Source: Xestospongia bergquistia (taxonomy: Eukaryota; Porifera; Demospongiae; Haplosclerida; Petrosiidae). From it: a stretch of 64,000 nucleotides of DNA. This document shows, piece after piece, positions 6 to 59,526 of the stretch. Within the stretch, counting starts at the first letter, position 1. Each line of letters opens with the position of its first letter. Both the position numbers and the translations under genes were made by a program. The stretch covers positions 12,044,501 through 12,108,500 of the forward strand of contig OZ014411.1 of the NCBI GenBank assembly GCA_963965975.1, given 5' to 3'. The notes below the pieces were generated by a model that ran no database searches, was not told the DNA's origin, and was given only the letters and a program-made list of their open reading frames with translations.

Positions 6-1683
6 GAGGGATTGACTCCAGTTATGTTAGCTGCAGACAATGGCCACAAAGATGTGATTTCAATTTTAATACAGAGAGGAGCTAATCTAAACATTGTTGA
101 TCTAGTAAGTGTTTATGTGCATATGTTATATTGTAAATCCAGAGCTTCACCATTATCAGCCTAATCAGGTTATTTAAAAAATCTTCTATTTACTCCATTA
201 AAACTTATGTTATGTATCCATGTTATTGCTAAGGTAATAATAATTATCCAGCATTGATTATTCAATGTTTATTTTATATATCGGCTCCGTGGATGCTTTT
301 TACTATTAATTTTATTTAGTGGTCTAGTTTGACAGTTGAAGATTTGTGTTTTATTGTAATAGGATGGAGTGATGGCTCTTCATTATGCAAGTAATAATGG
401 ACATACTGATGTTGTTGAAATATTGCTTAACGATACTACTAATATTGACATTGTTACTAAGGTAATTCAGATGATAAGAATGAGTGTGTAATCTAAGTAA
501 AATTATTTTTTCTATTTGAATTTTTAAGTCAAAATATTTACTATTAGAAGGAGTTATAAAATAAATTTGTAACAAGTAATACAGCAGATTTTGCATTTAA
601 AGACTGTTGTATATAAAAAATAATGCTTCTGAAAGTTTTAAGTAACAATGACTGAGATTTAGGTATGAAATTGATGAATGATGATGGTGAATTACAATGT
701 TAGTCTAATATTTGTATTGATAAGATTATAGTAAGATTTGTTGCGAATAGTTTGGTTAATGTAAGAGTAGTTGATATCACTGATACTTTTTTAATTAGAG
801 TTAATGTTTTGTAAGTTTGTAATGTGCTAGTGTAGTCATGTAATACATTTACAATAGTGTTAGCAGAGATAATTTAAAATCATCATAATATATTTGATTA
901 GTTGATGTTAATGGTGTTACTGTAATATACTTAGGAGGGATTGACTTCAGTTATGTTAGCTGCAGACAATGGCCACAAAGATGTGATTTCAATTTTAATA
1001 CAGAGAGGAGCTAATCTAAACATTGTTGATCTAGTAAGTGTTTATGTACATATGTTATGTTATAAATCCAGAGCTTCATCATTATCAGCCTAATCTGGTT
1101 ATTTAAAAAATCTTCTATTTATTCCATTAAAACTTATATTATGTATCCATGTTATTGTTAAGGTAATAATAGTTATCCAGTATTGATTAATCAATGTTTA
1201 TTTTATATCGGGACTGTGGATGTTTTTTACTATTAATTTTATTTATTGGTCTAATTTGACAGTTGAAGATGTGTGTTTTATTGTAATAGGATGGCTGGCT
1301 GGCTCTTCATTATGCAAGCAATAATGGACATACTGATGTTGTTGAAATATTGCTTAACCATACTACTAATATCGACATTGTTACTGAGGTAATTCACATC
1401 ATGAGAATGAGTGTGCAAAGTATGGCTGTATGAAACTTGTATCATACTATACCTACATAACTTACATTAACATTCATTCAGTGATACATTAGTAATAGGC
1501 AACCTTTTTGTCATAGTAAACCAGTACAGTCTATATCGATGTATTACTTTGTATGGTATTATTTATCTTGCCTATATTATTTAGGACAAAAGGACTCCTT
1601 TGCACTATGCTGCAAACAATGGCAGAACTGATGTTGTCACACTTTTGATTAACAGTGGAGCTAATCTAGATGCAGCTGATAAT
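6..1683 (+). CDS. Ankyrin exon block 1 (A-B-A-B-C)
   Basis: Five 99-nt, phase-0 exons, each one 33-residue ankyrin repeat: A 6-104, B 363-461, A 935-1033, B 1290-1388, C 1585-1683. Type A reads EGLTPVMLAA-NGHKDV and then a leucine-rich helix ending GANLN. Type B reads DGWLALHYASNNGHTDVVEI (or DGVMALH). Type C reads DKRTPLHYAANNGRTDVV. All keep the ankyrin TPL/ALH, GH and V--LL signature. Each acceptor is TTAG or ATAG and each donor GTAAGT, GTAATT or GTTAGT. All five are open with no stop. The exon that precedes base 6 is not in the window. Confidence 0.88.
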
Positions 1684-1756
1684 GTTAGTGCTATGTAAAT
1701 TTACTTTATTCATCATATGAGGCAACTAATCTAGTGGTGTAGAAAAAAGTTACCTA

Positions 1757-1835
<79 letters not shown>

Positions 1836-2339
1836 AAGTAACTTTTTGCTGCACTGCTAGATTAAATATATATATATATTCATATATAGACCAGAATTAA
1901 AGGACAAAAGAACAGTGCTCTCAATTTGTTGCTGACAGCAGCAAAGCAAGAGCTCTGTTCTTTTGTCCTTCAATTCTGGTCTAACCTGCTCTGTCTAAAT
2001 GATATTGAGCACTCTTCAACAGACCTAGATATTCTAGCATATATACATATATATATGTGTATATATAGTCACACTTAGGAATGCAACAAATGCTTTACTA
2101 AACCCGGATACACAAGCATGCAAAAACACTTGTCAAGTAATACTCACAGCAAAAATGTTTACTCAATATCTAGTGATACAATAAACTTGAAGAAAGAAAA
2201 CAAAACAGACATATGTAAAACAGCAGTGTGAAAGTGAATAAGATGAAAAACAAAGTTAGAATATATGTATACAGAAATTTTACTACAAATGCTAAAGTTT
2301 ACTATTATTCCGGTGAGACTAGAGATCAAAGCCCATTTC

Positions 2340-2378
<39 letters not shown>

Positions 2379-5300
2379 CACACACACAAGTGCTGATCCA
2401 GGTGGGGGGGAGGGTGATAAGGGTGGATTTCCACCCCCCTTTCCTCATGAATTACTTAATATAAATAATTTTAATAAAGCCAACAATTAATCAATTGAAA
2501 AGAACTGAATCACAAGTCATTTTTCTAGGGTTTCTTAATTTAAATTGTTCACAACATTTTTCTATACTAATTTCATAATTAAATCCTTGCATCCCTATTA
2601 AACCTAAATTGCCAAGTCTGTCAGAAGTCATTGTTGTTCGCAACCATGTGTGAATCTGCCTTAAACATGAAAATGATCTTTCTGCTTCTGTACTACCTAT
2701 TGGAAGAACTGCCAGGATACATAAAAGTTCCCTGACATTTGGATAAAAAATGGAATCAGCATCTAATTTAAGTAGACTCGTTACTGATCTTGGTTCTTTG
2801 ATACTTTCACAGTGTACTTTCCATCGTCTAAGTTCACTTTCAAAGTTATCTGGTGATGGCATCAGATGGGTCCACTTTGAAGCTAGGAGATCAGCTGTGT
2901 CACTAATATCACTTTCATCCTTTTTAGTGATGATTTCAGGAATTAAGGAGCAAAGCTCATAATGTGCCTGTTTTTCTGGTGCAAACCTACACTTTAACTC
3001 AGAAACAATTGAGTCAAGGAAGGGAATTGTAACTGTTACTTTCCACTAATCCTTTGGAGATGTAACATCTGATTTGATCTCATTGTTTGCCTTCCCTTCA
3101 GTATGCATGGCATGCCCTCATTACTCCCTATATCATCTGCCAGCTTGAGAGCTTTAGATTAAACAGAATTGTGCTGAGTAGATACATCTTCCCTTATTCT
3201 CTTGTAGACCTCTTTTACTTCATCAACCTTTTAAAGTCAAAGTAAACTTCCTGTAGTCTTCCTTAAAGGCATTCAGCAATTGGACGAATTTGTTCCAAAA
3301 GTTCTTTTGCAATCAAGAAGACGACTATGTGCTCAAATTTACAGAAAGTGTGTCGAAGTCCATTTGCATAATTGCGAGACTCAGAATCCCAGTTCCAATG
3401 ATTACCTTCTGGATATAACTGTTCCTCATCACTTGGATGGCATATTTCATTCCAAGTTTGAACAAGATATGGATACAATTAAAAAATACCTGTAAAAAGG
3501 GTATTTGGTTCAATCCATCTGGTTTTGCATAGGCCATTTATTTTAACTTTCTTTGCCTGATTAGGACAAAAACATTTGATTACCATTTCAAGAAATTGTT
3601 GGCGCTTTGGGGAGTTATCAAAGAACAAAATACTTGATGGCAGTTGTCTATCATATTTCTAATAGATGAAATTTTTGAGGAGTTGCATATTACAAGGTTT
3701 AAGGTATGTAATATGCATCCTTGGTAAATCGCATCAGGAGTAAATTTCTGAATATGGGCTTTTACAGCTGATCTTGAAGAACTCATAGAGGCTGTAGTGT
3801 CATATGCTTGCCCATGAGATTTTGTTACATCGATTTCATGACATTCAAGTACTTTTAGGATAGCCTCAGCTATCTTTTCCCCTGTGATTCTTTCTAAGAA
3901 GTGAAAATCCAAGAGGACCTCGTGTTTCTTGGCAACAAATTCAGTGTTAGTCCTAACTTCTAGAAAGCGTAAGCAAACTGATAAGATCTCATTACCATGA
4001 GAAGTTACTTCAGCTGCTATCACTGAAACGTGATGACAAATCATCAAGCAATCTCGATAAAATTGACGAATTTGTGTGGCAGCTACTTCTAGGATCTCAT
4101 TTTGGATTGTTTTGCTAATATACTTTGCATTTTTTTCGACCAGAAACTAGATGCGCCTGCAAAATGCTGTTTGTTTTGGCAAGCAGTCTTAAAATAGCTA
4201 TGAAATTACCTTCATTGAAACATGGAGGCTTGGAGAAATCTATCTTGTCTTGTTTATGTCCTTGCAGGGCCACTTTCTGGCTGGCACAAGTTAAAACTGC
4301 TTCTACTAAGACAGGTAAAATTTCAGAATTGAACAAAAATTTTTCTGATTAGTATCTGTGAGTCTACTGTCAATTCTGATTTCTGGATTGGAATAGCTAG
4401 CTTTGAAGGTGTACGATCTCTGAACTGCATGCAAGTGATAAACATTTTTGCAGTGTCTAGCAAGAATCTCGGTGGATTTGTTGTAATTGACAAAAGGGGT
4501 GTTAACAAAACTTTTGAGCTGTGCCTTCTCACTATCTGTTAAGAAAATTATGCACGGTAAGTACCAACCTCCTTTCTCCAACATCCACCATAGAAAAGTC
4601 ATGCATGCTGTTCCAACCATTTCCTTTGAAAGGATATCTTTCACTGCTGACTACCCCTTTTATAAGGAAAATATCTGTAATCCAAGCTTAAGGTTTGATT
4701 GTGTGGAATTTTTTCATTCGGTGATGTAGTAAGAACTTTGTACTTTTCAGACTCTGGTTTTTTTAATTGCTACCTCTATTAGGTTTAATGGATGATTGTG
4801 GCAAGGTGGAACAATTACACTGCTTGAATTTTCCTCACATGAGTTGGAACATTGTGCCATTCCTGATCCTGATGCAGTAATAACATCATTATCACCCGTG
4901 ATCATAGGTGTACCAAGATCATCCTCACTGGTATCTTGTTGGGGAATTTGGGATGTACTGTCTCCTGTATTCCTATGTTGCTGGGGACTCTGAGGTATAG
5001 TGGTACCAATACTGATATCTTCATCTTGTAAATTGTCATGTGGAAACTCTTGTGACAGTGAGTTACTGGTACTAGATAAGTCATTATTAATAGTAGACTG
5101 AGATGAGTGCAACTCTGAATCATGGGCCTGTGAAGATCATTGACTATAATAATCAATTCGTAACTATTATTATTACACCTTGTACTGATGTTGAGCTTGA
5201 CTGGTAAATAAAGACCTGATGTCTTTAGTACCATTGCTGCTTTTCTTTTTCCACTTTCCCATGACACAATGACATGAACTGAGGACACTTAGTCACAGCT

Positions 5301-5516
5301 GCACAGTTAAAGTTTCACCTCAAGTGTAAATACATGATCATGTTTGAAGTTAACAGTAAACTTGACAACTGCAGTGCATGATCAAAAGTGTAGTGCTACA
5401 TGTAATTTTTTGTCATGGAGTTTCAGAGTTTTACTTTAATTCCACCCCCCTTGGGAATTTCTAGATCAGCCACCCACTGATATATAAACTAAGGTAACTT
5501 TTTGCTACACTGCTAG

Positions 5517-5605
<89 letters not shown>

Positions 5606-8600
5606 ATAAATATTCATATATAGACCACAATTGAAGGACAAAAGAACAGGACTCTCACTTTGTTGCTGACAGCAGCAAAGCAAGAGCTCTGTTCTTCTGT
5701 CCTTCAATTCTGGTCTAACCTACTCTGTCTAAACAATATCGAGCACTCTTCAACAGACCTAGATATTCTAGCATATATCCATATATATATGTGTATATAT
5801 AGTCACACTTAGGAATGCAAAAAATGCTTTACTAAACCTGGATCCACAAGCATACAAAACACTTGTCAAGTAATACTCAAAAATGTTTACTCGATATCTA
5901 GTGATACAATAAACTTGAAGAAAGAAAACAAAACAGACATATGTAAAACAGCAGTGTGAAAGTGAATAAGATGAAAAACAAAGTTAGAATATATGTATAC
6001 AGAAATTTTACTACAAATGCTAAAGTTTACTATTATTCCGGAGAGACTAGAGATCAAAGCCCATTTCTCACTAAATCTAACCTATCACTTTGTGAGGCAA
6101 ACCCTGCATATCCATATATTGTTTAGTATAATAGTAATAAAAATAGTATAATAATAATAATAATATTTGTACCTCAATAGGAAATACTACATTGTGTAAC
6201 ATCAATTTAAATTCTTGCTGAAATTTATTATATTTAAATAATAACTTTGCATGCATACTTTAAGCTCTACATTGGCAGTATTATATCAAATTATCACTTA
6301 GTTTCCTTCTAATTACTCTGCACATTATAAGGGTTTACTTTTTACTCTCATAGTAAGTAGACCATTGAATTTATATTTACAGTAATTCATGCATTAGTTT
6401 CTTGTTGTAGAATGTTATTATTTTTGTCCAAAAATAATAAAAATTATTGATTTCTATATGAATTTTTATATTGTTTAAATTGTTGTCTCCCATTAGTACA
6501 TGTACTGCATAAAAAGTAATGTATATTACATGTTATAAAAGACTCATTTTATTTTTATTCAAATCATTGCTGTTAGTCACAATAGTTAAACATTTATGTG
6601 TGTCTTTAGTAACTGACAAACCATTTTTGTATCATCTCTTTGTTTTTTGAAATACATCATTGATGTTTATATAGTGACTGCAATGTTAGTCTAGAGAGAT
6701 TCATTTTAAATATCTTTGCTTGAGGACTCCTCTTTCTAAATCTCTATAGATAGCTGTTTTTATATTAATAAATGGTAATATAATATAATACTATACTGTG
6801 TTACAGTATAACTGTAGTGGAATTGTCTAATAGAACAATGTACATTGTGTTAGAACAAATATATGATTGTCTAGATAATGTGTTATCAGTTTTAGTATAT
6901 TCTCTGTTCTTGATATACAAGTAACTTTGGCTATATGTGTGTGGTACTTGTTGTTATCCTTGATTAACAAATGTTCACATGTGGGATCTGAGAGAAGATA
7001 GATTCATTAGTTGAACTTAATGGTGTTACTGTAATATATTTAGGAGAGATTGACTCCAATCATGTTAGCTGCAAGAAATGGCCACAAAGATGTGATTTCA
7101 ATTTTAATACAGAGAGGAGCTAATCTAAACTTTGTTGATTCAGTAAGTGTTTATGTACATATGTTATATTATAAATCCAGAGCTTCATCATTATCAACCT
7201 AATCTGGTTATTTAAAAAAATCTTCTATTTACTCCATTAAAACTTATGTTATGTATCCATGTTATTGTTAAGGTAATAATAGTTATCCAGTATTGATTAA
7301 TCAATGTTTATTTTATATCGGGTCCATGGATGCTTTTTACTATTAATTTTATTTAGTGGTCTAATTTGACAGATGAAGATTTGTGTTTTATTGTAATAGG
7401 ATGGCTGGCTAGCTCTTCATTATGCAAGTAATGATGGACATACTGATGTTGTTGAAATATTGCTTAACTATACTACTAATATTGACATTGTTACTGAGGT
7501 AATTCAGATGATAAGAATGAGTGTGCAATCTAACTAAAATTATTTTTTATGTTTGAATTTTTAAGTCAAAATATTTACTATTAGAAGGAGTTAAAAAATA
7601 AATTTGTAACAAATAATACAGCAGTTTTTGCAAGTAAAGTCTGTTGTATATAAAAAATAATGCTACTTAAAGTTTTAAGTAACAATGACTGAGATTTAGG
7701 TATGAAATTGATGAATGGTGATGGTGAATTACAATGTTAGTCTAATATTTGTATTGATAAGATTATAGTAAGAGTTGTTGAGAATAGGTTTGTTATTGTA
7801 AGAGTAGTTGATATCACTGATACTTTTTAAGTAGAGTTAATGTTTTGTAAGGTTGTAATGTGCTAGTGTAGTCATGTAATACATTTACAATAGTGTTAGC
7901 AGAGATAGTTTAAAATCATTATAATATATTTCATTAGTTGATGTTAATGATGATAGTGTAATATATTTAGGAGGGATTGACTCCAGTTATGTTAGCTGCA
8001 TGTAATGGCCACAAAGATGTGATTTCAATTTTAATACAGAGAGGAGCTAATCTAAACTTTGTTGATCCAGTAAGTGTTTATGTGCATATGTTATATTATA
8101 AATCCAGAGCTTCATTATTATCAGCCAAATCTAGTTATTTTAAAAAATCTTCTATTTACTCCACTAAAACTTATGTTATGTATCCATGTTATTGTTAAGG
8201 TAATAATAGTTATCCAGTATTGATTAAGCAATGTTTATTTTATATCAGGCCCGTGGACAATTTTTACTATTTATTTAGCATGTTAGCTGTCTCATTTGAC
8301 AGTTGAAAATTTGTCTTTTATTCTAATAGTATGGCTGGCTTGCTCTTCATTATGCAAGTAATAATGAACATACTGTTGTTGTTAAAATATTGCTTAACTA
8401 TACTACTAATATTGACATTGTTACTGAGGTAATTCAGATGATAAGAATGAGTGTGCAATCTAACTAAAATTATTTTTTATGTTTGAATTTTTAAGTCAAA
8501 ATATTTACTATTAGAAGGAGTTAAAAAATAAATTTGTAACAAATAATACAGCAGTTTTTGCAAGTAAAGTCTGTTGTATATAAAAAATAATGCTTCTGAA

Positions 8601-11600
8601 AGTTTTAAGTAACAATGACTAAGATTTAGGTATGAAATTGATGAATGGTGATGGTGAATTACAATGTTAGTCTAATATTTGTATTAATAAGATTATAGTA
8701 AGAGTTGTTGCGAATAGTTTGGTTAATGTAAGAGTAGTTGATATCACTGATACTTTTTTAAGTAGAGTTAATGTTTTGTAAGTTTGTAATGTCCTAGTGT
8801 AGTCATGTAATACATTTACAATAGTGTTAGCAGAGATAATTTAAAATCATCATAATATATTTGATTAGTTGATGTTAATGGTGTTACTGTAATATATTTA
8901 GGAGGGATTGACTCCAGTTATGTTAGCTGCAAGAAATGGCCACAAAGATGTGATTTCAATTTTAATACAGAGAGGAGCTAATCTAAACATTGTTGATCTA
9001 GTAAGTGTTTATGTACATATGTTATATTATAAATCCTGAGCTTCATCATTATCAGCCTAATCAGGTTATTTAAAAAATCTTCTATTTACTCCATTAAAAC
9101 TTATGTTACGTATCCATGTTATTGTTAAGGTAATAATAGTTATCCAGTATTGATTAAGCAATGTTTATTTTATATTGGGCACGTGGACACTTTTTACTAT
9201 TTGTTTAGCATGTTAGCTGTCTCATTTGACAGTTGAAGATTTGTCTTTTATTCTAATAGTATGGAGTGATGGCTCTTCATTATGCAAGTAATAATGGACA
9301 TACTGATGTTGTTGAAATATTGCTTAATCATACTACTAATATTGACGTTCTTATTAAGGTAATTCAGATGATAAAAATGAGTGTGCAACCTAAGTAAAAT
9401 TATTTTTTTATATTTGAATTTTTTAAGTCAAAATATTTACTATTAGAAGGAGCTATAAATTGAATTTGTAACAACTAATTCAGCAGACTTTGTAAATAAA
9501 GACTGTTGTATATAAAATAATGAGATTATAATAAAAGTTGTTACGAATAGTTTGGTTAATGTAAGAGTAGTTGATATCACTGATACTTTTTTAATCAGAG
9601 TTAATGTTTTGTAAGTTTGTAATGTCCTAGTGTAGTCATGTCATACATTTACAATAGTGTTAGCAGAGATAATTTACAATAATCATAATATATTTGATTA
9701 GTTGATGTTAATGGTGTTACTGTAATATATTTAGGCGGGATTGACTCCAGTTATGTTAGCTGCAAGAAATGGCCACAAAGATGTGATTTCAATTTTAATA
9801 CAGAGAGGAGCTAATCTAAACTTTGTTGATCCAGTAAGTGTTTATGTGCATATGTTATATTATAAATCCAGAGCTTCATCATTATCAGCCTAATCTGGTT
9901 ATTTAAAAATCTTCTATTTACTCCATTAAAACTTATGTTATGTATTCATGTTATTCTTAAGGTAATAATAGTTATCCAGTATTGATTAATCAATGTTTTT
10001 TTTATATGGGGTTTGTGGATGTTTTTTACTATTAATTTTATTTATTGGTCTAATTTGACAGTTGAAGATCTGTCTTTTATTTTAATAGTATGGAGTGATG
10101 GCTCTTCATTATGCAAGTAATAATGGACATACTGATGTTGTTGAAATATTGCTTCAACATACTACTAATATTAACATTGTTACTAAGGTAATTAATTCAG
10201 ATGATAAGAATGAGTGTGCAATCTAATTAAAATTAATTTTTATGTTTGAATTTTTAAGTCAAAATATTTACTATTAGAAGGAGTTAAAAAATAAATTTGT
10301 AACAAATAATACAGCAGTTTTTGCAAGTAAAGACTGTTGTATATAAAAAATAATGCTTCTGAAAGTTTTAAGTAACAATGACTGAGATTAGGTAGGTATG
10401 AAATTGATGAATGGTGATGGTGAATTACAATGTTAGTCTAATATTTGTATTAATAAGATTATAGTAAGATTTCTTTTGAATAATTTTGTTAATGTAAGAG
10501 TAGTTGATATCACTGATACTTTTTTAAGTAGAGTTAATGTTTTGTAAGTTTGTAATGTCCTAGTGTAGTCATGTAATACATTTACAATAGTGTTAGCAGA
10601 GATAATTTAAAATCATCATAATATATTTGATTAGTTGATGTTAATGGTGTTACTGTAATATATTTAGGAGGGATTGACTCCAGTTATGTTAGGTGCAAGA
10701 AATGGCCACAAAGATGTGATTTCAATTTTAATACAGAGAGGAGCTAATCTAAACGTTGTTGATTCAGTAAGTGTTTATGTACATATGTTATGTTATAAAT
10801 CCAGAGCTTCATCATTATCAGCCTAATCTGGTTATTTAAAAAAAATCTTCTATTTACTCCATTAAAACTTACGTATCCATGTTATTGTTAAGGTTATAAT
10901 AGTTATTCAGTATTGATTAATCAATGTTTAATTTATATCGGGACTGTGGATGTTTTTTACTATTAATTTTATTTATTGGTCTAATTTGACAGTTGAAGAT
11001 TTGTGTTTTATTGTAATAGGATGGCTGGCTGGCTCTTCATTATGCAAGTTATAATGGACATACTGATGTTGTTGAAATATTGCTTAATGATACTACTAAT
11101 ATTGACATTGTTACTAAGGTAATTCAGATGATAAGAATGAGTATGCAATCAAAGTAATTTTTTTTTCTATTTGAATTTTTTAAGTCAAAGTATTTACTAT
11201 TAGAAAGAGTTATAAAATACATTTGTAACAAATAATACAGCAGTTTTTGCAAGTAAAGACTGTTGTATATAAAAAGTAATGCTTCTTGAAGTTTTAATTA
11301 AAAATGACTGAGATTTAGGTATGAAATTGATGAGTGGTGATGGTGAATTACAATGTTAGTCTAATATTTGTATTAATAAGATTATAGTAAGATTTGTTTC
11401 CAATAGTTTGGTTAATGTAAGAGTAGTTGATATCACTGATACTTTTTTAAGTAGAGTTAATGTTTTGTAAGTTTGTAAAGTCCTAGTGTAGTCATGTAAT
11501 ACATTTACAATAGTGTTAGCAGAGATAATTTAAAATCATCATAATATATTTGATTAGTTGATGTTAATGGTTTTACTGTAATATATTTAGGCGGGATTGA

Positions 11601-14600
11601 CTCCAGTTATGTTAGGTGCAAGAAATGGCCACAAAGATGTGATTTCAATTTTAATACAGAGAGGAGCTAATCTAAACTTTGTTGATCCAGTAAGTGTTTA
11701 TGTGCATATGTTATATTATAAATCCAGAGCTTCATCATTATCAGCCTAATCTGGTTATTTAAAAAAATCTTCTATTTACTCCATTAAAACTTATGTTATA
11801 TATTCATGTTATTGTTAAGGTAATAATAGTTATCCAGTATTGATTAATCAATGTTTATTTTATATCGGGTTTGTGGATGTTTTTTACTATTAATTTTATT
11901 TATTGGTCTAATTTGACAGTTGAAGATTTGTGTTTTATTGTAATAGGATGGCTGGCTAGCTCTTCATTATGCAAGTAATAATGGACATACTGATGTTGTT
12001 GAAATATTGCTTAATGATACTACTAATATTGACATTGTTACTAAGGTAATTCAGATGATAAGAATGAGTGTGCAATCAAAGTAATTTTTTTTTTTCTATT
12101 TGAATTTTTTAAGTCAAAATATTTACTATTAGAAGGAGTTATAAAATAAATTTGTAACAAATAATACAGCAGTTTTTGCAAGTAAAGACTGTTGTATATA
12201 AAAAGTAATGCTTCTTGAAGTTTTAATTAAAAATGACTGAGATTTAGGTATGAAATTGATGAGTGGTGATGGTGAATTACAATGTTAGTCTAATATTTGT
12301 ATTAATAAGATTATAGTAAGATTTGTTTCGAATAGTTGGTTAATGTAAGAGGTGTTAAAATCACTGATACTTTTTAAAGTAGAGTTAATGTTTTGTAAGT
12401 TTGTAATGTCCTATTGTAGTCATGTAATACATTTACAATAGTGTTAGCAAAGATAATTTAAAATCATCATAATATATTCCATTAGTTAATGTTAATGATG
12501 TTACTGTAATATATTTAGGAGGGATTGACTCCAGTTATGTTAGGTGCAAGAAATGGCCACAAAGATGTGATTTCAATTTTAATACAGAGAGGAGCTAATC
12601 TAAACTTTGTTGATTCAGTAAGTGTTTATGTGCATATGTTATATAATAAATCCAGAGCTTCATCATTATCAGCCTAATCTGGTTATTTAAAAAAATCTTC
12701 TATTTACTCCATTAAAACTTATGTATCTATGTCAATGTTAAGGTTATAATAGTTATTCAGTATTGATTAATCAATGTTTATTTTATATCGGGACTGTGGA
12801 TGTTTTTTACTATTAATTTTATTTATTGGTCTAATTTGACAGTTGAAGATTTGTGTTTTATTGTAATAGGATGGCTGGCTAGCTCTTCATGATGCAAGTA
12901 ATAATGGATATTCTGATGTTGTTGAAATATTGCTTAACCATACTACTAATATTGACATTGTTACTAAGGTAATTCAGATGATAAGAATGAGTGTGCAATC
13001 TAACTAAAATTATTTTTTCTATTTGAATTTTTAAGTCAAAATATTTACTGTTAGAAGGAGTTATAAAATAAATTTGTAACAAGTAATACAGCAGTTTTTG
13101 CAAGTAAATACTGTAAAAATAATGCTTCTGAAAGTTTTAAGTAACAATGACTGAGATTTAGGTATGAAATTGATGAATGATGATAGTGAATTACAATGTT
13201 AGTCTAATATTTGTATGGATAAGATTATAGTAAGATTTGTTGAGAATAGTTTTGTTAATGTAAGAGTAGTTAATATCACTGATACTTTTTTAATTAGAGT
13301 TAATGTTTTGTAAGTTTGTAATGTCCTAGTGTAGTCATGTAATACATTTACAATAGTGTTAGCAGAGATAATTTTAAATCATCATAATATATTCCATTAG
13401 TTGATGTTAATGGTGTTACTGTAATATATTTAGGAGGGATTGACTCCAGTTATGTTAGCTGCAAGAAATGGCCACAAAGATGTGATTTCAATTTTAATAC
13501 AGAGAGGAGCTAATCTAAACGTTGTTGATCCAGTAAGTGTTTATGTGCATATGTTATATAATAAATCCTGAGCTTCATCATTATCAGCCTAATCTGGTTA
13601 TTTTAAAAAATCTTCTATTTACTCCATTAAAACTTATGTTATGTATCCATGTTATTGTTAAGGTAATAATAGTTATCCAGTATTGATTAAGCAATGTTTA
13701 TTTTATATTGGGCACGTGGACACTTTTTACTATTTGTTTAGCATGTTAGCTGTCTCATTTGACAGTTGAAGATTTGTCTTTTATTCTAATAGTATGGAGT
13801 GATGGCTCTTCATTATGCAAGTAATAATGGACATACTGATGTTGTTGAAATATTGCTTAATCATACTACTAATATTGACGTTCTTATTAAGGTAATTCAG
13901 ATGATAAGAATGAGTGTGCAATCTAAGTAATTTTTTTTTTTGATTTGAATTTTTAATATATAAGTCAAAGTATTTACTATTAGAAGGAGTTAAAAAATAA
14001 ATTTGTAACAAATAATACAGCAGTTTTTGTAAGTAAAGACTGTTGTATATAAAAATAATGCTTCTTAAAGTTTTAAGTAACAATGACTGAGATTTAGGTA
14101 TGAAATTGATGAATGGTGATGGTGAATTACAATGTTTGTCTAATATTTGTATTGATAAGATTATAGTAAGATATGTTGAGAATAGTTTTGTTAATGTAAG
14201 AGTAGTTGATATCACTGATACCTTTTAAAGTAGATTTAATCTTTTCTAAGTTTGTAATGTCCTAGTGTAGTCATGTAATACATTTACAATAGTGTTAGTA
14301 GAGATAATTTACAATCATCATAATATATTCCATTAGTTGATGTTAATGGTGTTACTGTAATATATTTAGAAGGGATTGACTCCAGTTATGTTAGCTGCAT
14401 GTAATGGCCACAAAGATATGATTTCAATTTTAATACAGAGAGGAGCTAATCTAAACCTTGTTAATCCAGTAAGTGTTTATGTACATATGTTATGTTATAA
14501 ATCCAGAGCTTCATCATTATCAGCCTAATCTGGTTATGTAAAAAAATCATCTATTTACTCCATTAAAACTTATGTTATGTATCCATGTTATTGTTAAGGT

Positions 14601-15191
14601 AATAATAGTTATCCAGTATTGATTAATCAATGTTTATTTTTTTATCGGGTCTGTGGATGTTTTTACTATTTAATTAGTGTGTTAGTTGTGTAATTTGACA
14701 GATGAAGATTTGTGTTTTATTGTAATAGGATGGCTGGCTGGCTCTTCATTATGCAAGTAATAATGGACATACTGATGTTGTTGAAATATTGCTTAACCAT
14801 ACTACTAATATTGACATTGTTACTGAGGTAATTCAGATGATGAGAATGAGTGTGCAAAGTATGGCTATATAAAACTTGTATCATACTATATAACATACAT
14901 TAACATTTATTCAGTGATACATTATTAATAGGCAACCTTTTTGTCATAGTAAACCAGTACAGTTTATATAGATGTATTACTTTGTATGGTATTATTTATC
15001 TTGCCTATATTATTTAGGACAAAAGGACTCCTTTGCACTATGCTGCAAACAATGGCAGAACTGATGTTGTCACACTTTTGATTAACAGTGGAGCTAATCT
15101 AGATGCAGCTGATAATGTTAGTGCTATGTAAATTTACTTTATTCATCATATGAGGCAACTAATCTAGTGGTGTAGAAAAAAGTTACCTTAG

Positions 15192-15261
<70 letters not shown>

Positions 15262-18200
15262 AGGTAACTTTTTGCTGCATGCTAGATTAAATATATATAT
15301 ATATTATATATATATTCATATATAGACCAGAATTAAAGGACAAAAGAACAGCACTCTCAATTTGTTGCTGACAGCAGCAAAGCAAGAGCTCTGTTCTTTT
15401 GTCCTTCAATTTTGGTCTAACCTGCTCTGTCTAAACAATATCAAGCACTCTTAAACAGACCTAGATATTCTAGCATATATACATATATGTATGTGTATAT
15501 ATAGTCACACTTAAGAATGCAACAAATGCTTTACTAAACCCAGATACACAAGCATGCAAAAACACTTGTCAAGTAATACTCACAGCAAAAATGTTTACTC
15601 GATATCTAGTGATACAATAAACTTGAAGAAAGAAAACAAAACAGACATATGTAAAACAGCAGTGTGAAAGTGAATAAGATCAAAAACAAAGTTAGAATAT
15701 ATGTATACAGAAATTTTACTACAAATGCTAAAGTTTACTATTATTCCGGAGAGACTAGAGATCAAAGCCCATTTCTCACTAAATCTAACCTATCACTTTG
15801 TGAGGCAACCCTGCATATCCATATATTGTTTAGTATAATAGTAATAAAAATAGTATAATAATAATAGTATTATTTGTACCTATGATTAATACACTTAGTT
15901 AACATTGATATACCCTTTATTCAATAGTCTTTGATTTCAAGAGATAAGGCAAATTACCTCTTTCCATGTTAATGTTAAAATAGTCCTTGATTTGCAAAAA
16001 AAATAGTACAATCTCTATCCAAAACTGTATAATGGATTTTGACCTTTTTAGAGCCTACTGTGTCACAAAGTTATTGTCACTATTATGATGATTATACAAA
16101 ACTTTTTAATGAAGTACTGCTCAATAGGAAATACCACATTGTATCATATCAGATTATCACTTAGTTTCCTTCTAATTACTCTGCACATTATAAGGGTTTA
16201 CTTTTTACTCTCATAGTAAGTAGACCATTGAATTTATATTTACAGTAATTCATGCATTAGTTTCTTGTTGTAGAATGTTATTATTTTTGTCCAAAAATAA
16301 TAAAAATTATTGATTTCTATATGAATTTTTATATTGTTTAAATTGTTGTCTCCCATTAGTACATGTACTGCATAAAAAGTAATGTATATTACATCTTATA
16401 AGACACTCATTTTATTTTTATTCGAATCATTGCTGTTAGTTACAATAGTTAAACATTTATGTGCGACTTTAGTAACTGACAAACCATTTTTGTGTCATTT
16501 CTTTGTTTTTTGAAATACATCATTGATGTTTATATTGTGACTGCAATGTTAGTCTAGAGAGATTCATTTTAAATATCTTTGCTTGAGGACTCCTCTTTCT
16601 ATATCTCTATAGATAGCTTTTTTTATATTAATAAATGGTAATATAATATAATTACTATACTGTGTTACAGTATAACTGTAGTGGAATTGTCTAATAGAAC
16701 AATGTACATTGTGTTAGAACAAATATATGATTGTCTAGATAATGTGTTATCAGTTTTAGTATATTCTCTGTTCTTGATATACAAGTAACTTTGACTATAT
16801 GTGTGTGGTACTTGTTGTTATCCTTGATTGATAAATGTTACTTGGTGTCAGAGGTTGGATCTGAGAGAAAATGGATTGTTAAAGACTCCAACCTCCAGGT
16901 CCTTTTAACTTCAAGAACCCAGATGAATGGCCTTGTTGGAAAAGTTGATTCGAACAGTTTTGACAAGTAACCAGTCTCTCAGATCAGGCTGGAGAAAGAC
17001 AAGTCAGTACCCTCCTTTATTGCCTATGTGAAGAAGGAGAGAACATTTTGCTTTCTACGAGTATCACTGCCAACGCTTGAAGGGATTTCAACAAAGTACT
17101 TGCCAAATTCAACAAGTTTTTCAATGTTAACAGAAACGTCATATTTGAAAGAGCTAGGTTTAACCAAAGGTATCAACAACAGTATGAAAGTGCCAAGGAA
17201 TACATCGCAGTTCTCTACAATCTAGCGGGAAATTGCAAATACGGAGATCAAGATGATACAATTCAAGTTAGATGCAGGGGATGAGGTCACTGCTATCTCT
17301 GAAAAGACTTACAGATGTCTACCATGAGTTCCTTTGCAGAAAACCTTGTTAGGTCTTAATTAGAAACTACTAAGAGTTTTAGGTCAATTTATGATGACAA
17401 TTGGGCACAAGGAGAAATCCTCACCACAAATTATTTTCGTGATAAAAGATCTCAAAAACAACTTGTTGGACTTACCAACCATTATTTCTCTTTGTCTGGT
17501 GGCCAAGACTGACTCCATAACTCACAATGAGTACACATCGAAAGTTTATACTACATCCCTAACTTGTTCAAAGGACTTGGTAATTTAGGAGAAGAATACA
17601 AAATTGTTATAAAGGCAGATGCTACACACTTTGCTCTCTATACTCTTCAAAAAATAACATTTCTGGTTTGAGATGAAGTCCAAGAGGAACTGAGACAAAT
17701 AGAGGAACTTGGTGTTATCTCCAAGATTAATAAACCTTCTCAATGGTGTGCAGGAATGGTAGTAGTTCCAAAGAAAAATGGTACAATAAGAATATGTGTG
17801 GACTTGAAACCACTTAATGAAAATGTTTTACAAGAAACATATTCTCTACATGGAGTGGACGAGACATTGGCTCAGCTCACAGGAATGACAATTCTCAGCA
17901 AGCTCAATGCTAATAGTGGTTCTGGCAGATACCCTTAGCTGAATTTTCCAGACCACTCACTACTTTTATTATGCTGTTTGAACACTACCATTTTAACAAA
18001 CTCCCATTTGGAATCTTCAGTGCACCTGAGCATTTTCAAAGAAGATTGACCAAGATCTTGGAAGGGCTAGAAGGTGTTCTATGTCACGTGAATGACATCC
18101 TGGTGTTTGGTCGCAATGAAGAGAAGCATGATGGAAGCTACATTAAAAAGAATTGAAGATGCGGGTATAACTCCTAATTCAGAGAAGTGCATATTCCATC

Positions 18201-21200
18201 AGAATCAACTGAAATTTCTAGGTCATATTATAGACAAGGATGGAGTTCATGTTAACCAAGAGAAAGTCAAATCAGTTGTAAACATGAAAGCATCTACCAA
18301 CATATCTGAATTTTGTTGCTTCATGGGAATAGTAAACCAACTGGCAAAATTTTCCGCTAACGTAGCTGAATTAACACAGCCATTAAGAGAATTATTGAGT
18401 AAGAAAAACACCTATTTATGGAGCCCCAATCAAGAGGAAGATTTCGAGAAAATCAAACAAAAACTCTCAAATCCTACAATACTTGCCTTGTATGACCCTA
18501 CCTCAGATACAAAGATATCAGCTGATGCCTCAACCTTTGGTCTAGGATCTGTACTATTGCATAAACATGGATTAGATGGAGACCAATTGCATATGCTTCT
18601 TGTGAAATGACAGAAACAGAAAGATGATATGCTCAGATTGAAAGAGAAGCACTAGTGGCTACTTGGACATGTAGAAAGTTTTTGGACTACATCATTGGTA
18701 AAACGTTTCACTTAGAAATCAACCTTAAGCCTCTGGTTTCCTTGTTAAGTACAAAACATCTAGACAACCTCCCACCACAAGTTGTGAGATTTTGGCTACA
18801 GTTAATGACATTTGACTACTCTATTAGCCATGTACCAGGGAAGTATATGTATCGTGATCCTACTATCATTACACACTTTTTAGGAGATGATAACGTAAAT
18901 GATATTGAACAGTTTGTTGAGGTCCAAGTGGAAAGTCTACTAGCTAGCAAGGACAGATCGTCAAACTGAATTGAACGACCCACTCTGCTCACAAGTTATC
19001 AAGTATTGTCAATCTAGTTGGCCAGAGAAACATATGATTCAATCCTCTCTAAAACCATATCGGACTGTTAGAGGTGAGCTAATAGTATGCAATAATCTAC
19101 TCTTTTTTAATAAACACATTGTTGTGCCTGAGTCTCTAAAGAAACACTTGACAAAATCCATGAGGGACATCAGGGAATTCAGAAAAGTCACTTAGAGCAA
19201 CATCATCTGTCTTGTGGCCAGGTCTCTTAAAAGAGATAGTTCAAACTGTACAGAAGTGTGCAAATTTGTGCCAGGAAGACCACCTAACCAAGTAAGTCAC
19301 TAATACCTTCAAAACTACGAGACTATCCTTGGCAAACATTGGATCAGATTTATTTGAGTTGGAAGGAGTTACCTACCTGTTAGTAGTTGATTACTTTTCA
19401 AGATACCTTGAAGTTATAAGATTGGACACGACCAATTCTCAAGCCATCATATCTTGCTTCAAGTCTACCTGTAATCATTATGGCTTCCTGAAGTACTTAC
19501 TAAGGACAATGGTCTACAATATATTTCACAAGAAATGAAAGGTTTTACAACATCTTATGGATTTGAACATGTTATTTGAAGTCCTTATTTACCACAAAGC
19601 AATTGTCAAGCTGAACTCACAGTCAAAATGGTGAAAATACTACTACTTAACAATAAAGACCAATATATCACTCTCCTAAACTATAGTGCAACACCTTTTC
19701 CATGGTGTGGACGTAGTCCAGCTGAGCTCCTGATGGGAAGACAAATTCGTACAAAGCTAACCCAAACTAAGGAGAATTTAATTCCAACATGGCATTACCT
19801 TGATATTTTCCAAAGGAAAAATGATAGAGAAAAGATCAAACAGAATTTTGATTGTCGACATAGAGTTCATTCACTACCAGTATTAACAGAGACACTCCTG
19901 TCTGGGTCACTTCAAGTACAAGACAAATTCCTGGCAATACAATCATCAAGCTGAAACACCAAGATCTTATGTGGTCAACACACCGTCAGGTCAAGTTTGT
20001 AGAAATCACCATCATCTAACTAACAGTCAGGACTGATGATAGTACTGAGACCTCTCAAAATGAAAATACTGCAGGAGACAGAGATTCAAGTAGTCTAACA
20101 GAAACATTAGTCGAGTTGACAGTCGTAGTCCAATCATTACTAGATCTCGCACAGGTGTAGTTGTGAACCCACCTAAATGACTGACTTTCTGAGAAAGGGA
20201 GATGAAGTGGAATTGTCTAATAGAACAATGTACATTGTGTTAGAACAAATATATGCTTGTCTAGATATTGAATTATTAGTTTATAGTATACTCTCTGTTA
20301 TTGCTATATAAGTACCTTTGGCTGTATGTGTGTGATACTTGTTGTTATTCTTGATTCATAAATGTTACAATAACTAAATGGAATTGGTAGCCATAACAGA
20401 AGAAATGTCATCATCAAAATTTTAAGTTCAAAATTTGTATAATTTTCTAGGATGGCAATACTCCATTAATATTAGCATGTCAGGAAGGACACCAGTCAGT
20501 AGCAATGATTCTATTAGAGAAAGGAGCTGACAGGCAATTACTTAATAAAGTTAGTAAATATATATTACTGCTTTATTATGAAAAAAATCTATTAATCAAT
20601 TTATAAATTTGGATCACAGTAATAGGAATATTACAAATGTGATTAAGATCAATGCAATTGTTATATTTGTAGAAGTGTTAATGGATCCATGAGATTTTAT
20701 AAAAATAAAACACACTAGCTTATTATCTATAAGCATTGATTTCCCATAAATTGGAAAAGGTTACTTAGCTCAATTAAATTTACAAAACTTTTACCATATA
20801 TTCCATCTTTTATATAAAATAATAATAAAAGACTTACAATTGAAATTTCACTAAATTATAACTAACTAACTTAACTAACTCATTCACTAACTTATTACTA
20901 GAATGGGGAAACAGCGTTGACACTGGCGGATAAAAAGGCTAAAGATTTTCATCAAAAGCTTGTACAGCAAATTGATCACATCAGTAAGTAGAAAGTGTCT
21001 TCGATAACAAAATGATTAGCAATATATTTTTGTTTTAGATAAGAGAATTTTATTGCAAGCGCTAGAAGAGGGTTACGTCATACTTTCTATTATAAAATTG
21101 CTTTTGGCTGGTCCTCCAGCTGTTGGTAAGACCTCCTTCAAACATCTTCTCTTTGACTGGAAACCACCACATTGTCATCATAGTACACCCATTGCTGATC

Positions 21201-36030: not shown

Positions 36031-37053
36031 TTAACGAATGTATAATTCAATGATATCAATTGGTGTAGCTTCATTAGGATATCCTTCACTGCTACACATT
36101 CTTAGTTCAATATCATCAGTGGTCCAGTAATTGAGGGACTTTATGAACCATGGCATGTTTGGAGGTGTACAACAATTAGATTCTAAGTACCCACATTGTT
36201 CACCATCCCATAATGGATCATCATAATGGAATAAAATGTCACTATTCCCAATCCATTCACGAACACCAGACTCACAATAATAGTCATTACCAACATATTG
36301 TGGTGTACGCTCAGAGCTGCCACTATTACATGGACAATCTTCCCAAGCATTGTCATTTTCATCTTGACCTACGACAAATGTCCAAATGTGATGACGTGGG
36401 TTACTACCATGAGTAATAGATATCCCATCAACATAGGGTCCTTCAAGTGAAAGACTTCCACCATTATTTTGATAGATTCCGTCTACACCATTATATTGAT
36501 ATCCTCTTACTCGCCCACATACTTGAGAATATTTGAGGCCAAATGTAGAGAAATAGGTTGAACTACAACCAAAACCTGATGGATGAGGTCTATCACAAAG
36601 TGGATAGTTAATGTTAGGAAAGTAGTAAGAATTCAGTCCTCTTGGACAGTTATTTGAACCAGAATCACTCATGTTCATGTAAACTACTCTTGTCCAACCT
36701 CCTTTACCATCACAATCGTTATCGTTCATATTACAGTAGACTGTTTCACTACTGCCATTATTGAGCGTAATATTGTAGTACCCTGAAGTAGTAGTTGGAA
36801 ATGTTTGCAAACTATTGCAAAAAAATTTTGAACACCTGTGAGATGAAAATGTAGGACAAAGTATAAATGTACTGGTATTTTGATTTGTCACTTTAAACTT
36901 CTTGCCACTGTTACTCGGAACACAGCAGTATTGTTCAAAGACTGAAGGAGAATGTGAAAGATCAGCACAGTTAGCCATATGAGTAGAGGAACCCTCACTG
37001 ATGTCAGATAAAACTATACTTATAAACAGTCCTAATTGAAGGAAAGTCTCCAT
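36031..37053 (-). CDS. Secreted Cys-rich protein, single exon
   Basis: An intact minus-strand frame. I take Met at 37053 (METFLQLGLFISIVLS) because it starts a signal peptide directly; an in-frame Met lies 7 codons upstream (37074). The mature protein of about 320 residues has many Cys. Its motifs include NGSSETVYCNMNDNDCDGKG, GWTRVVYMNMSDSGSNNCPR, YSQVCGRVRGYQY, YVDGISITHGSNPRHHIWTF, VGNDYYCESG, DPLWDGEQCG and TTDDIELRMCSSEG. This is a family expanded in sponges and also found in cnidarians and molluscs, distantly like fibrinogen-related or intelectin-like secreted proteins (weak). It probably acts outside the cell, perhaps in recognition. A minus-strand AATAAA lies at 35900-35905. No introns, and no frame damage although it is surrounded by transposon relics. 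Confidence 0.85.
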   Translation of the reverse strand: METFLQLGLFISIVLSDISEGSSTHMANCADLSHSPSVFEQYCCVPSNSGKKFKVTNQNTSTFILCPTFSSHRCSKFFCNSLQTFPTTTSGYYNITLNNGSSETVYCNMNDNDCDGKGGWTRVVYMNMSDSGSNNCPRGLNSYYFPNINYPLCDRPHPSGFGCSSTYFSTFGLKYSQVCGRVRGYQYNGVDGIYQNNGGSLSLEGPYVDGISITHGSNPRHHIWTFVVGQDENDNAWEDCPCNSGSSERTPQYVGNDYYCESGVREWIGNSDILFHYDDPLWDGEQCGYLESNCCTPPNMPWFIKSLNYWTTDDIELRMCSSEGYPNEATPIDIIELYIR

Positions 37054-37140
37054 TTTTAAGTCATAAGCATACAACTCAACAGCTTAACTTTGTTTGCTCC
37101 AATGATATTAGACACTACAGTCTTAAAGTGCTAAAGTAAA

Positions 37141-40490: not shown

Positions 40491-41720
40491 CTAGAAGTAT
40501 CAGGGGAACATGAAACAGAAAAAAGGAAAAAGCTCCCCACCATGTGGTGATAAAGGCTGTCGTGTACCTTGAGGATGATACATTTCAACCCACTTGTTAT
40601 ATCGTACATTAGTCTCTAAATCATAGCCTTCCTCATAATGTCGTTGAAAATGTAATATCTCTTCAGTAGTGAAGGTAGTATTATGTACTGGAGATGTATT
40701 ATGTCTTGATAGAGATGGGCTCTAAAGGGGAAGTTAATGGACTTTCTTGACTTCTAAATTTGCCATTCTAGATTTTACTGGTGTTTTAATAAAACAGCTG
40801 CTCTGTTAATAGGGTAAACTCCAGTTGTACAAAAACCACTTATAACATTTTCCATTGTCATGCTTTAGTCCATGCATGTTGAAAAACCTGACAAAATGTA
40901 AACCTGGTGATAACCTTTCCAGGGTTTGATCTTAAGTAATTATGGCACTCCTCTCGCCAATATCTCTTTAAAATCAAAAAACATCCCTTATCAAGGTGCT
41001 GAGCCAAGTGTGTAGAATGAGGTGGTAAACAAAACAATTATTCCTTCCTCTGCAGCTTTATTAATAAAAGATGGAGTATAATGAGGTGAATGTCCGTCTA
41101 ACAATAAAAGCAATGGACAAAGTGGTGGAGTATGAGACAGAAAATGATGTCTGAACCAAGATCAAACAGTTCACCATCAACCCAGCCACTCTCTGACAAG
41201 CCATATATTGACCCTGGGACCTCTCCTACAGTCATTTCAGTCTTTAATGTCTTTTGGTCAAGACATGGCCACTTACACTACAACAAGACAACACAGTAAT
41301 TTGAGTTTTGTTACCAGTAGTAATGGATTCAGTATGTTTTTGCCCTTTCTGAGCAATGACTTTGGGAGGAGCTGGGTCTAGTGGCATACCAGTTTCATCA
41401 CAGTTATATATTTGGCAAGGTTTGCTAGACAAGTCATTTTGATCTAATGTTTCTTCAAGAATATCAAAATAATGATCAAGTGCTTCAGGTGAGGTACACA
41501 CGGCTCTAACATGGGAAAGTTGTTCAGGATTTCTAAGAGATAATGATGGATGCCTTTTTCTAAAAGAGTCCCACCAACCATTTGTAACAGTAACATTTAT
41601 GCCTTTTTGGTGGACAACATTTTGAATGATGGCTAAAATGACAAAAAATAGGTGTAGTTGAATAGTTGTAAAATTTATTGACTTCGTACTGTAAGTTGAA
41701 ATAAAGAACTCTAACAACAC

Positions 41721-57435: not shown

Positions 57436-59449
57436 TGTAAGTGCATATATATCAGTGTATGCATGTATACAATAATAGTACCATTCATATAATAATAAAT
57501 GATTGCACTATTACCTTTTTCATTATATTTAGAACAATGAGACAGTTCTATTCAAGGCTTCAGAAAGAGGATACACTGACATAGTTCAATATTTACTGGA
57601 AGTAAAAGCAGATCCTGATATACCTGACATAGTAAGTATACTATTACATTGATGTATACTGTTAACTCTCAAAATCTAACAATTTATATAATCTATTGTC
57701 CATAGCATAAAAATGTTCTCAATTTAGTGATGTATTAATATGCTATAATATTAACATCATTAAGTATCTTCTTTTATTCTCTTTTAAGAGTGGTTTCACT
57801 ATGATGTGATTGTAATAATTAGTACTTTATTTAGTTTTTTCTTTTGTTATAATTCATAGCTATGATATGACAATTATGTCATTTGGTTCATTAGTTATTA
57901 GTAACTACTTCCATATTATTATACATTGATATGTAAATATGACAACTATATACCAATATACAATCTATATATCTATATATCTATATATAGAGAGAGAGTG
58001 TGTACTATGTGGAACTATAGATATAATTGTGTACCTGTTATATATTGAGATACATTTCTGATCATACCCCCTTCAGACTGCAGTACATCAAATCTATATT
58101 TTATTTGTCTATGGTATGTTTACATACTATAGACAAATAAAACAGGCAAATAGAACTGTCTCATTGCTTTTGGTTTATAGTTTGTGAATTCTATGTACAG
58201 CTTTGCCACCAATGTATCCATAAACCAATCTGAGCACTTTAAATTGGTTGTTAATTTTCTGAGTTCAGTGACTCAAAAAAACATAGCATTTTCCAATCTT
58301 TTAATTTAGTTATAATCCAGCCAGTTACATCTGCAACAGAGTCTTCAAAAGAGTCTTAGGAGGATTTATAAAATAATTTTTTGCTTTTGTTTGCTATTAG
58401 TGTTACATTGTATATAATGATATCTATGCACTAATGTATTATACTGGAAGTGTACTACTAATACTTTGGTAAGTCAAGGACAAAGTCAAAAAAATGTGTC
58501 TCACTTTTATAATATAACCATTACTATTATTAAGTCTAATTTATTAAGACTAGTTATTATTTGAACATTATGAAATAGTAACATCGTTATTGCAGTTTTA
58601 TGACATCACAAAGTCATCATATGACAATTTGAACTCAAAAGATGGCTGCGTTTTTGATAATGCACAGTTTAAAAATAAGCCTGCATTTCTTATGGAGGTT
58701 TTTAATGAGGCTTAGATGTCATATTGCATTAACCTGGCAACTTATATTTGATTGGAGGAAATTGAAGTCACTTATAGTTGCCAATGTATGTCCATGTAAG
58801 TGAATGATGTATAATTGGCAAAAGCAAAATTTACCTATATCCTTCTCAATCAGAGCCAACAGGTAACACTGTTTACTTTCTTTAATATTATATATTGTTG
58901 ATCTTGACAATACTTATAATAAATGGGGAAAAAGCTTTTAGAATTAAAATTTTAAATTCTTTAAAACTTTAAAACATGAGCATCCATAGTCCTTTATTAA
59001 GTAGTATATTAAGTACATGTACATAATAATATGTTATTTAAAATTAATACCTAATATATGTCTATAATTACAATTTGTTCTTACTAATTATAGTATGGAT
59101 CTACTCCACTGATAACAGCTGCAGCAAGTGGCCAATCAGATGTCATAGATTTCTTGCTTAAATATGGTGTCAATATCCACCATACTACTATGGTTAGTAT
59201 ATATATATGTATATTGATGTAGGCTCTATTTATAATCTGTTCTATTTAATGTATATAAAAAGAACAATACGTCTCTAGCACATTTTATGTAAAGGATAAA
59301 ATTGTCATCAAATGTTCACTCTTGATCTTACTTTTCAAAAGCAATACTCCTATCATTTCTTCGTTATGTGATAAACATGTTGTAATAACACTTTGTTGTT
59401 ACATTGTGGTTATAAAAAGATATACAAACTGCCGTTGCTAAGTAAATAT

Positions 59450-59526
<77 letters not shown>

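Follow-up and report, generated by a model that had tools for sequence, protein, structure and literature searches.

In a window of 64,000 bp from the sponge Xestospongia bergquistia (contig OZ014411.1; G000:C1:12044501-12108500 of a genome of 146 Mb on 21 contigs), for which 40 kb of upstream DNA were also fetched, we identified a tandem array of 38 two-exon ankyrin cassettes, in which introns are homogenised as much as exons and amino-acid differences concentrate on the codons of the presumed ligand contacts. Based on the array, the exons behind it and related arrays elsewhere in the genome, we consider it probable that it represents the ligand-binding portion of a large gene with many exons and the order ANK(79 or more)-Roc-COR-like-Death-like, belonging to an expanded family. 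With the same degree of confidence, this family is read as one of Death-tailed, intracellular receptor-like proteins, whose ligand surface would have been diversified by unequal exchange together with diversifying selection. A single transcript would join all exons, the 79 repeats being composed of 76 from the cassettes, two from an additional exon type (C) and one more.

Each cassette consists of an A exon, an intron, a B exon and a second intron and has a length of about 0.93 kb. A preliminary description of the window, made from its letters, had reported eleven A-B pairs in two blocks, with all 22 exons 99 nucleotides (nt) long and in phase 0. An exon-sequence scan together with blastn found the same eleven pairs, two at 6-1388 and nine at 7044-14827, and all 22 exons were of the reported length and phase and stop-free as well. 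Both blocks are therefore real, but the window is not the boundary of the array, as 27 more A-B pairs lie up to 25 kb further upstream. Altogether, block 1 comprises 29 cassettes and block 2 nine, and all 76 A and B exons are 99 nt long, in phase 0, open and without indel. While the exon scan demanded AG and GT borders, blastn made no such demand and returned the same copies, so that no A or B copy was missed for want of a splice site. Each block ends with the 99-nt C exon, whose two copies are identical (100% full-length blastn match). The 33-residue unit and Pfam Ank scores above the cut-off of 21.1 bits, determined for one A exon (30.3), one B exon (35.8) and the C exon (43.5), identify the repeats as ankyrins, and when the translation of two joined units was aligned with ankyrins and a DARPin, no gaps were present in the displayed stretches of the latter. 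Upstream of block 1, one isolated A-B pair (at about -42.1 kb) and three B-like exons standing alone (at about -42.7, -36.3 and -30.1 kb) were detected, which are left out of the total of 38.

Over the 38 units, mean pairwise differences of 0.046 for exon A, 0.065 for exon B, 0.058 for intron 1 and 0.051 for intron 2 revealed that the exons are no more alike than the introns, in agreement with the earlier impression of introns nearly as conserved as exons. Indels, likewise described as confined to introns, were found in 31 distinct gap runs of the intron alignments and in none of the exons (Poisson estimate for zero about 2e-4). Several units are nearly identical, namely 12/15 (0.1%), 13/16/18 (0.0-0.5%), 17/19 (0.3%), 14/20/22 (0.1-0.3%), and 21/23/24 (0.3-0.4%), and other pairs in the distance matrix differ mostly by about 3-9%. 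Of 91 exact repeats of at least 150 bp, the 18 longest (299-1,443 bp) are all located inside block 1 at whole-unit offsets of about 1, 2, 3, 5, 6 or 8 units, e.g., 1,443 bp at 3 units, 1,293 bp at 2, 1,007 bp at 6, and 992 bp at 1; among the best 40 of the 91, some shorter repeats, mainly block-to-block, are off the whole-unit spacing. Within units, linkage between 105 two-allele sites was weak beyond 50 bp (mean r2 of 0.04-0.10, compared to 0.167 at shorter distances), and 28-50% of site pairs more than 50 bp apart violated the four-gamete condition. Taken together, whole-unit exact repeats, near-identical units, weak linkage and four-gamete violations argue that unequal exchange and conversion of short tracts took place repeatedly; the whole-cassette exact repeats are read as the footprint of recent unequal exchange. 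Since the DNA following block 1 (1385-2340) is 97.2% alike to that following block 2 (14824-15790) over 942 aligned positions, the C exon included, one block end is a copy of the other.

For the distribution of variation within the repeat, we take the positions randomised in DARPins (2, 3, 5, 13, 14, 26, and 33) to be the contact surface, with the register (exon codon + 2) derived from the gap-free alignment to a DARPin chain. The variable positions of the window array were known before this set was chosen, while for the other arrays the set was fixed beforehand. According to two papers, DARPin binding goes through randomised surface positions. Diversity was measured at codon positions 1 and 2, with the introns as reference. 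The preliminary description had exon differences falling on few codons; amino-acid differences among the window's eleven units affect 10 of 33 codons in A and 18 of 33 in B. Amino-acid variation with a minor count of at least 3 was present in 10 of 14 contact codons versus 9 of 52 others (Fisher test, 0.0002, and 0.0007-0.008 at other minor-count cut-offs). Nucleotide diversity in the 38 units was 0.159 for contact codons, 0.053-0.054 for introns and 0.039 for other codons, i.e., about three times the intron level at the contact codons. A spaced contact mask placed on the introns attained the observed diversity with P of 0.0001-0.0008, depending on the variant tried; upon rotation of the mask the true register ranked first of 33, and label permutation resulted in P of 0.001. 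The excess persisted in the 29 of 38 units left after removal of near-identical ones, in each block, without positions 26 and 33, and in the window's eleven units alone (0.203 for contact codons vs. 0.066 for introns); exon A of the window array also stood out taken alone (P 0.024). By class, contact codons had a pN/pS of 0.149/0.033 and all others one of 0.039/0.046, and the excess over introns sits in intermediate-frequency variants at the contact codons. As these codons lie above the introns, relaxed constraint alone should not explain them.

A search of the genome with unit-length DNA resulted in at least 166 matches, block 1's 29 units not being among the matches listed, and ten other regions were fetched as 19 stretches (P0-P9). 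To call exons there, a script demanded an open frame bordered by AG and GT as well as an ankyrin-core score, a choice that may favour low core variation and is blind to broken copies. A-like exons were found in all ten regions and B-like exons in nine, and nine harbored at least one A-B pair, with complete pairs numbering 7 in P0, 9 in P1, 12 in P2, 4 in P3, 13 in P4, 2 each in P5 and P6, none in P7, 3 in P8, and 1 in P9. The period is about 0.92 kb in P0 and about 0.8 kb in P1 and P2, and irregular in the others. The closest gene-level paralog is P0, which matches the window gene in 4.4 kb of upstream (84%) and 3.3 kb of downstream DNA (90.5%) and in which the seven complete pairs, compared to 38 in the window gene, are flanked by one B and one A. 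The selection test covered P0-P4, i.e., five of the ten other regions, using complete pairs only and, for P3, intron 1 as the sole reference. The contact-codon excess over introns recurred in four of these five, namely P0 (0 of 20,000 draws), P1 (P 0.0013), P2 (P 0.0087), and P3 (P 0.0103), though P1 and P2, being close relatives, are not fully independent replicates. The earlier claim that both repeat number and binding surface can be altered by unequal crossing-over or conversion is supported by three lines of evidence, which are the whole-unit exact repeats and near-identical units, the 7 versus 38 pairs in P0 and the window gene, and the contact-codon excess over introns.

Unit distances within an array ranged from 0.042 to 0.077 in W (the window gene's array), P0, P1, P2, P3, and P8 and were higher in P6 (0.116) and in P4 and P5 (about 0.19-0.20), while distances between arrays ranged from 0.065 to 0.278. 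For W, P0, P1, P2, P3, P6, and P8, between-array distances exceed those within the array; in P4 and P5, within-array distances (0.191 and 0.198) are not below that between the two (0.189). As units largely cluster by array, we discarded the idea that all arrays exchange freely with each other. Exceptions are P2, which is paraphyletic to P1, P3, which groups with P8, P4 and P5, which are not monophyletic, and the single P9 unit, which falls inside W with a support of 0.60. A second kind of tail, as compared to Roc-COR, was observed behind related A-B arrays (stretches L019-L020, L021-L022, L023-L025, and L034): a ZU5 domain follows P1, P2, and P3 (over the Pfam cut-off) and P8 (under it), and P2 has a Death domain over the cut-off after ZU5, while the matching stretches of P1 and P8 gave no Pfam match. 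P4 and P6 show an open reading frame (ORF) that resembles the ZU5-bearing one. A contrasting architecture was noticed on G000:C14 and G000:C3 (L001-L004), where very long intron-free ankyrin open frames reach up to 2,968 codons. Other individuals or relatives were sought by exact matching of one 32-base pattern in viral_contigs and one in genome_contigs, with 0 matches.

The array is linked to a tail with Roc-COR-like and Death-domain-like exons by position and strand (Table 1). The matches to Roc and COR-A, both under the Pfam cut-offs, come in the order expected of ROCO proteins, and the exon contains GPPAVGKT and DSGGQ, which we take to be GTPase motifs. Its sole match among PDB sequences was Rab-1A (E 0.062). 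A Pfam scan of the 638-residue ORF behind the array (E up to 1) gave only COR-A, Ras, and Roc, and in particular no NACHT or NB-ARC domain of the STAND NTPases. In the genome, the Roc-COR exon has at least 102 matches, a lower bound with 69 of 594 candidates scored, which were merged by eye to at least about 68 loci, some of them with internal stops. The window gene's exon is open, and comparison with P0, whose stretch as cut contained one stop codon that was left out, resulted in a dN/dS of 0.45 over 613 codons, which indicates at the sequence level that the tail is under constraint.

Since introns are homogenised along with the exons and every cassette is frame-neutral, whole repeat pairs can be gained, lost, or exchanged by misaligned recombination or by conversion with the frame intact. 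Selection would keep the ankyrin core and favour differences at the exposed, ligand-contacting residues, so that the array might serve as an internal library for assembling new binding surfaces, with a putative readout via the Roc-COR-like GTPase and a Death-type adaptor. Several observations weigh against this reading. The deficit of the other codons relative to introns is not significant (P 0.11), and the fraction of variable columns in the exons (0.21 and 0.30) is no higher than in the introns (0.32 and 0.27). Exon-wide dN/dS, which was dropped as the main argument in favour of the intron-referenced test, is 4.4 in exon A, with few synonymous sites (codon bootstrap of pN/pS 1.8-27.7), and just 0.8 in exon B (0.36-3.63). 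All P-values are approximate, because copies share variants. Among the other arrays, P4, the most diverged one tested, revealed no excess (0.226 vs. 0.214 in introns, P 0.42), the result for P3 is based on 4 units, and some exons do not stand out singly (B of P1, 0.157; B of P2, 0.099; A of P3, 0.169). The tail domains score under their curated cut-offs (COR-A 25.8 bits vs. 35.3, Roc 17.4 vs. 27, and Death 21.2 vs. 22.6), and a first exon, sought in the upstream DNA alike to P0 (84%, 4.4 kb), was not found, as no convincing coding exon appeared there.

The first of two alternatives that we regard as unlikely, though worth weighing, is neutral concerted evolution, in which tandem duplication produced the array as a side effect, with a core under purifying selection and an unconstrained surface. 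In this case the array would have no role in recognition, but maybe one as a scaffold or long spring. It would account for introns being homogenised as much as exons, for the variable-column fraction in exons not exceeding that in introns, and for P4; however, relaxed constraint predicts contact codons at or below the intron level, while they lie about threefold above it here and are also higher in four of the five other arrays tested. Diversity by splicing, in which skipping of symmetric cassettes yields many isoforms per cell, is compatible with diversification by exchange and selection, and as an account of its own we give it an equally low chance. The A, B, and C exons share a length of 99 nt and phase 0 throughout, and brown-algal LRR-ROCO genes (LRR, leucine-rich repeat) with single-repeat exons show splice variants (PMC11378527), but splicing alone leaves the exchange footprints unexplained. 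An assembly artefact, i.e., cassettes falsely duplicated by haplotype mixing or by repeat expansion in the assembler, is very improbable: although exact copies of up to 1,443 bp occur in units 12-24, the difference between most units amounts to several per cent, and arrays with their own variants exist at other sites of the genome, so that the unit number might be wrong, but hardly the structure. Least credible of all is a decaying gene or pseudogene with a freely expanding array, for which the transposon-like DNA between and behind the blocks, the failure to find a 5' end in the upstream comparison with P0 and the internal stops in some Roc-COR relatives could be cited, since 76 of 76 A and B exons are open and free of indels and the Roc-COR exon is open with the dN/dS versus P0 given above.

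Table 1. Features of the ankyrin gene in window coordinates (LTR, long terminal repeat)
Feature	Position	Strand	Details
Block 1, other 27 A-B units	upstream of window, from window coordinate -24905		exon-sequence scan
Block 1 end, A-B units 28-29	6..1388	+	A 6-104, B 363-461, A 935-1033, B 1290-1388
C exon (ankyrin repeat), end of block 1	1585..1683	+	scan + blastn
Break between blocks	1684..7043	.	insert about 2400-5470; LTR-like piece near 6757-7008
Block 2, nine A-B units (30-38)	7044..14827	+	each exon 99 nt
Block 2, A exon starts	7044, 7971, 8902, 9735, 10668, 11591, 12519, 13434, 14370		
Block 2, B exon starts	7400, 8330, 9260, 10089, 11020, 11947, 12870, 13793, 14729		
C exon, end of block 2	15018..15116	+	scan; Pfam Ank
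Intron with decayed LTR-retrotransposon-like sequence	16619..20400	+	RT_RNaseH_2, E 1e-12 for 18092-18607
Last canonical ankyrin exon	20451..20549	+	Pfam Ank 8.4e-9
Short linker exon	20902..20983	+	by eye from sequence
Roc-COR-like GTPase exon	21039..22882	+	COR-A 1.1e-5, Roc 0.0054, under curated cut-offs
Exon after Roc-COR-like exon	22929..23383	+	by eye; 22938-23384 weak PAAT-like match, E 0.15
Death-domain-like exon	23510..23788	+	Pfam Death 3.2e-4 (23509-23787), 21.2 bits, cut-off 22.6

Apart from the exons, the gene carries transposon-like sequence. Pieces of the LTR-like sequence in the intron behind block 2 are also present in P0, so that it probably predates the gene duplication; a further LTR-like piece lies between the blocks. 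The insert there resembles the remnant of a DNA transposon, of hAT types in particular; its minus-strand open frame (3580-4047) remained without Pfam match at E up to 0.01. Further downstream, five 99-nt ankyrin exons on the plus strand (57533-63132), with a mean amino-acid identity of just 27%, are probably part of the next family member, whose Roc-COR match is located just beyond the window end (G000:C1:12113714-12115603) and contains internal stop codons. Two additional open frames were noticed on the minus strand, one of 347 residues rich in cysteine and glycine (36031-37074; no Pfam match at E up to 1) and one at 41244-41720 without Pfam match at E up to 0.01, the latter resembling pogo/Tigger-type transposases, judged by eye.

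Even without antibodies, animals have to recognise a great number of microbes, and the source of sufficient variety is an open question. The elements of a candidate mechanism can be read here from a single genome, namely a cassette that recombines, a scaffold under constraint, contact residues that vary, and a readout of the cell-death type, and the array looks like a means of quickly evolving new recognition surfaces. Unit number may be polymorphic between individuals, and the proteins may have a role in immune or non-self recognition. We put forward only tentatively, as somewhat doubtful, the broader picture of an animal with a genome-wide set of hypervariable ankyrin receptors, in which recombination operates on a cassette of two exons together with their introns, at least two tails (Roc-COR-Death and ZU5-Death) are in use, and unit number and order differ between individuals, giving each a private repertoire for microbes or non-self. 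If the mechanism holds, animals would join fungi and brown algae as builders of recognition libraries from recombining internal repeats.

Among the papers listed in searches of open-licence PMC literature, we found no homogenised exon-intron ankyrin array reported from an animal, and a term search of the main text of a paper on a sponge NLR repertoire (PMC12909245) did not return the word 'ankyrin'. In domain order, the predicted protein resembles DAPK1, which has ankyrin repeats followed by ROC-COR and a Death domain (PMC12408332). In DAPK1, a kinase domain lies in front, where no convincing exon of the sponge gene was found in the upstream comparison with P0, and there are eight ankyrin repeats, compared to 79 or more predicted here. 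In brown-algal LRR-ROCO genes, as described by Teng et al. 2024 (PMC11378527), each LRR is encoded by one exon of 72 nt in phase 2, many genes exist per genome, the ligand face is under diversifying selection, and a function as immune receptors has been proposed. These genes share with the sponge gene an N-terminal array of symmetric exons in front of a ROCO-type GTPase, which in the sponge is a putative one, and both one repeat per exon and selection at the ligand face were found here as well, the latter by comparison with introns instead of the PAML site models of that study (PMC11378527). Differences are the ankyrin repeat, the 99-nt phase-0 exons in an A-B dyad and the Death-like tail; intron homogenisation and whole-unit exchange footprints are features observed in the sponge gene.

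Fungal NLRs, i.e., the WD repeats of het-d/het-e (PMC1805685) and the ANK and TPR repeats in Podospora (PMC4986451), are similar in their concerted, near-identical repeats and in positive selection on the concave binding face, and polymorphism in repeat number is documented for them as well. In contrast, they are NACHT/NB-ARC proteins, and the homogenised unit of the sponge gene takes in introns. The fungal repeats lie inside coding sequence and are not known to have an intron between every repeat. As a genomic unit, the kringle IV type 2 (KIV-2) array of human LPA is comparable, as its 5.5-kb tandem unit also contains two exons, copy number ranges from 1 to more than 40, and variants spread among copies via duplication or conversion (PMC4378929). 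It encodes a kringle domain in a unit of 5.5 kb, compared to an ankyrin cassette of about 0.93 kb here. To our knowledge, KIV-2 is not a recognition surface under diversifying selection. While the class of LPA and the fungal NLRs is defined by variation between individuals, unit number in the sponge varies between paralogs (7 vs. 38 complete pairs). The closest precedents of this array are the exon arrays of brown-algal LRR-ROCO genes, the repeats of fungal NLRs and, for the genomic unit, LPA KIV-2.

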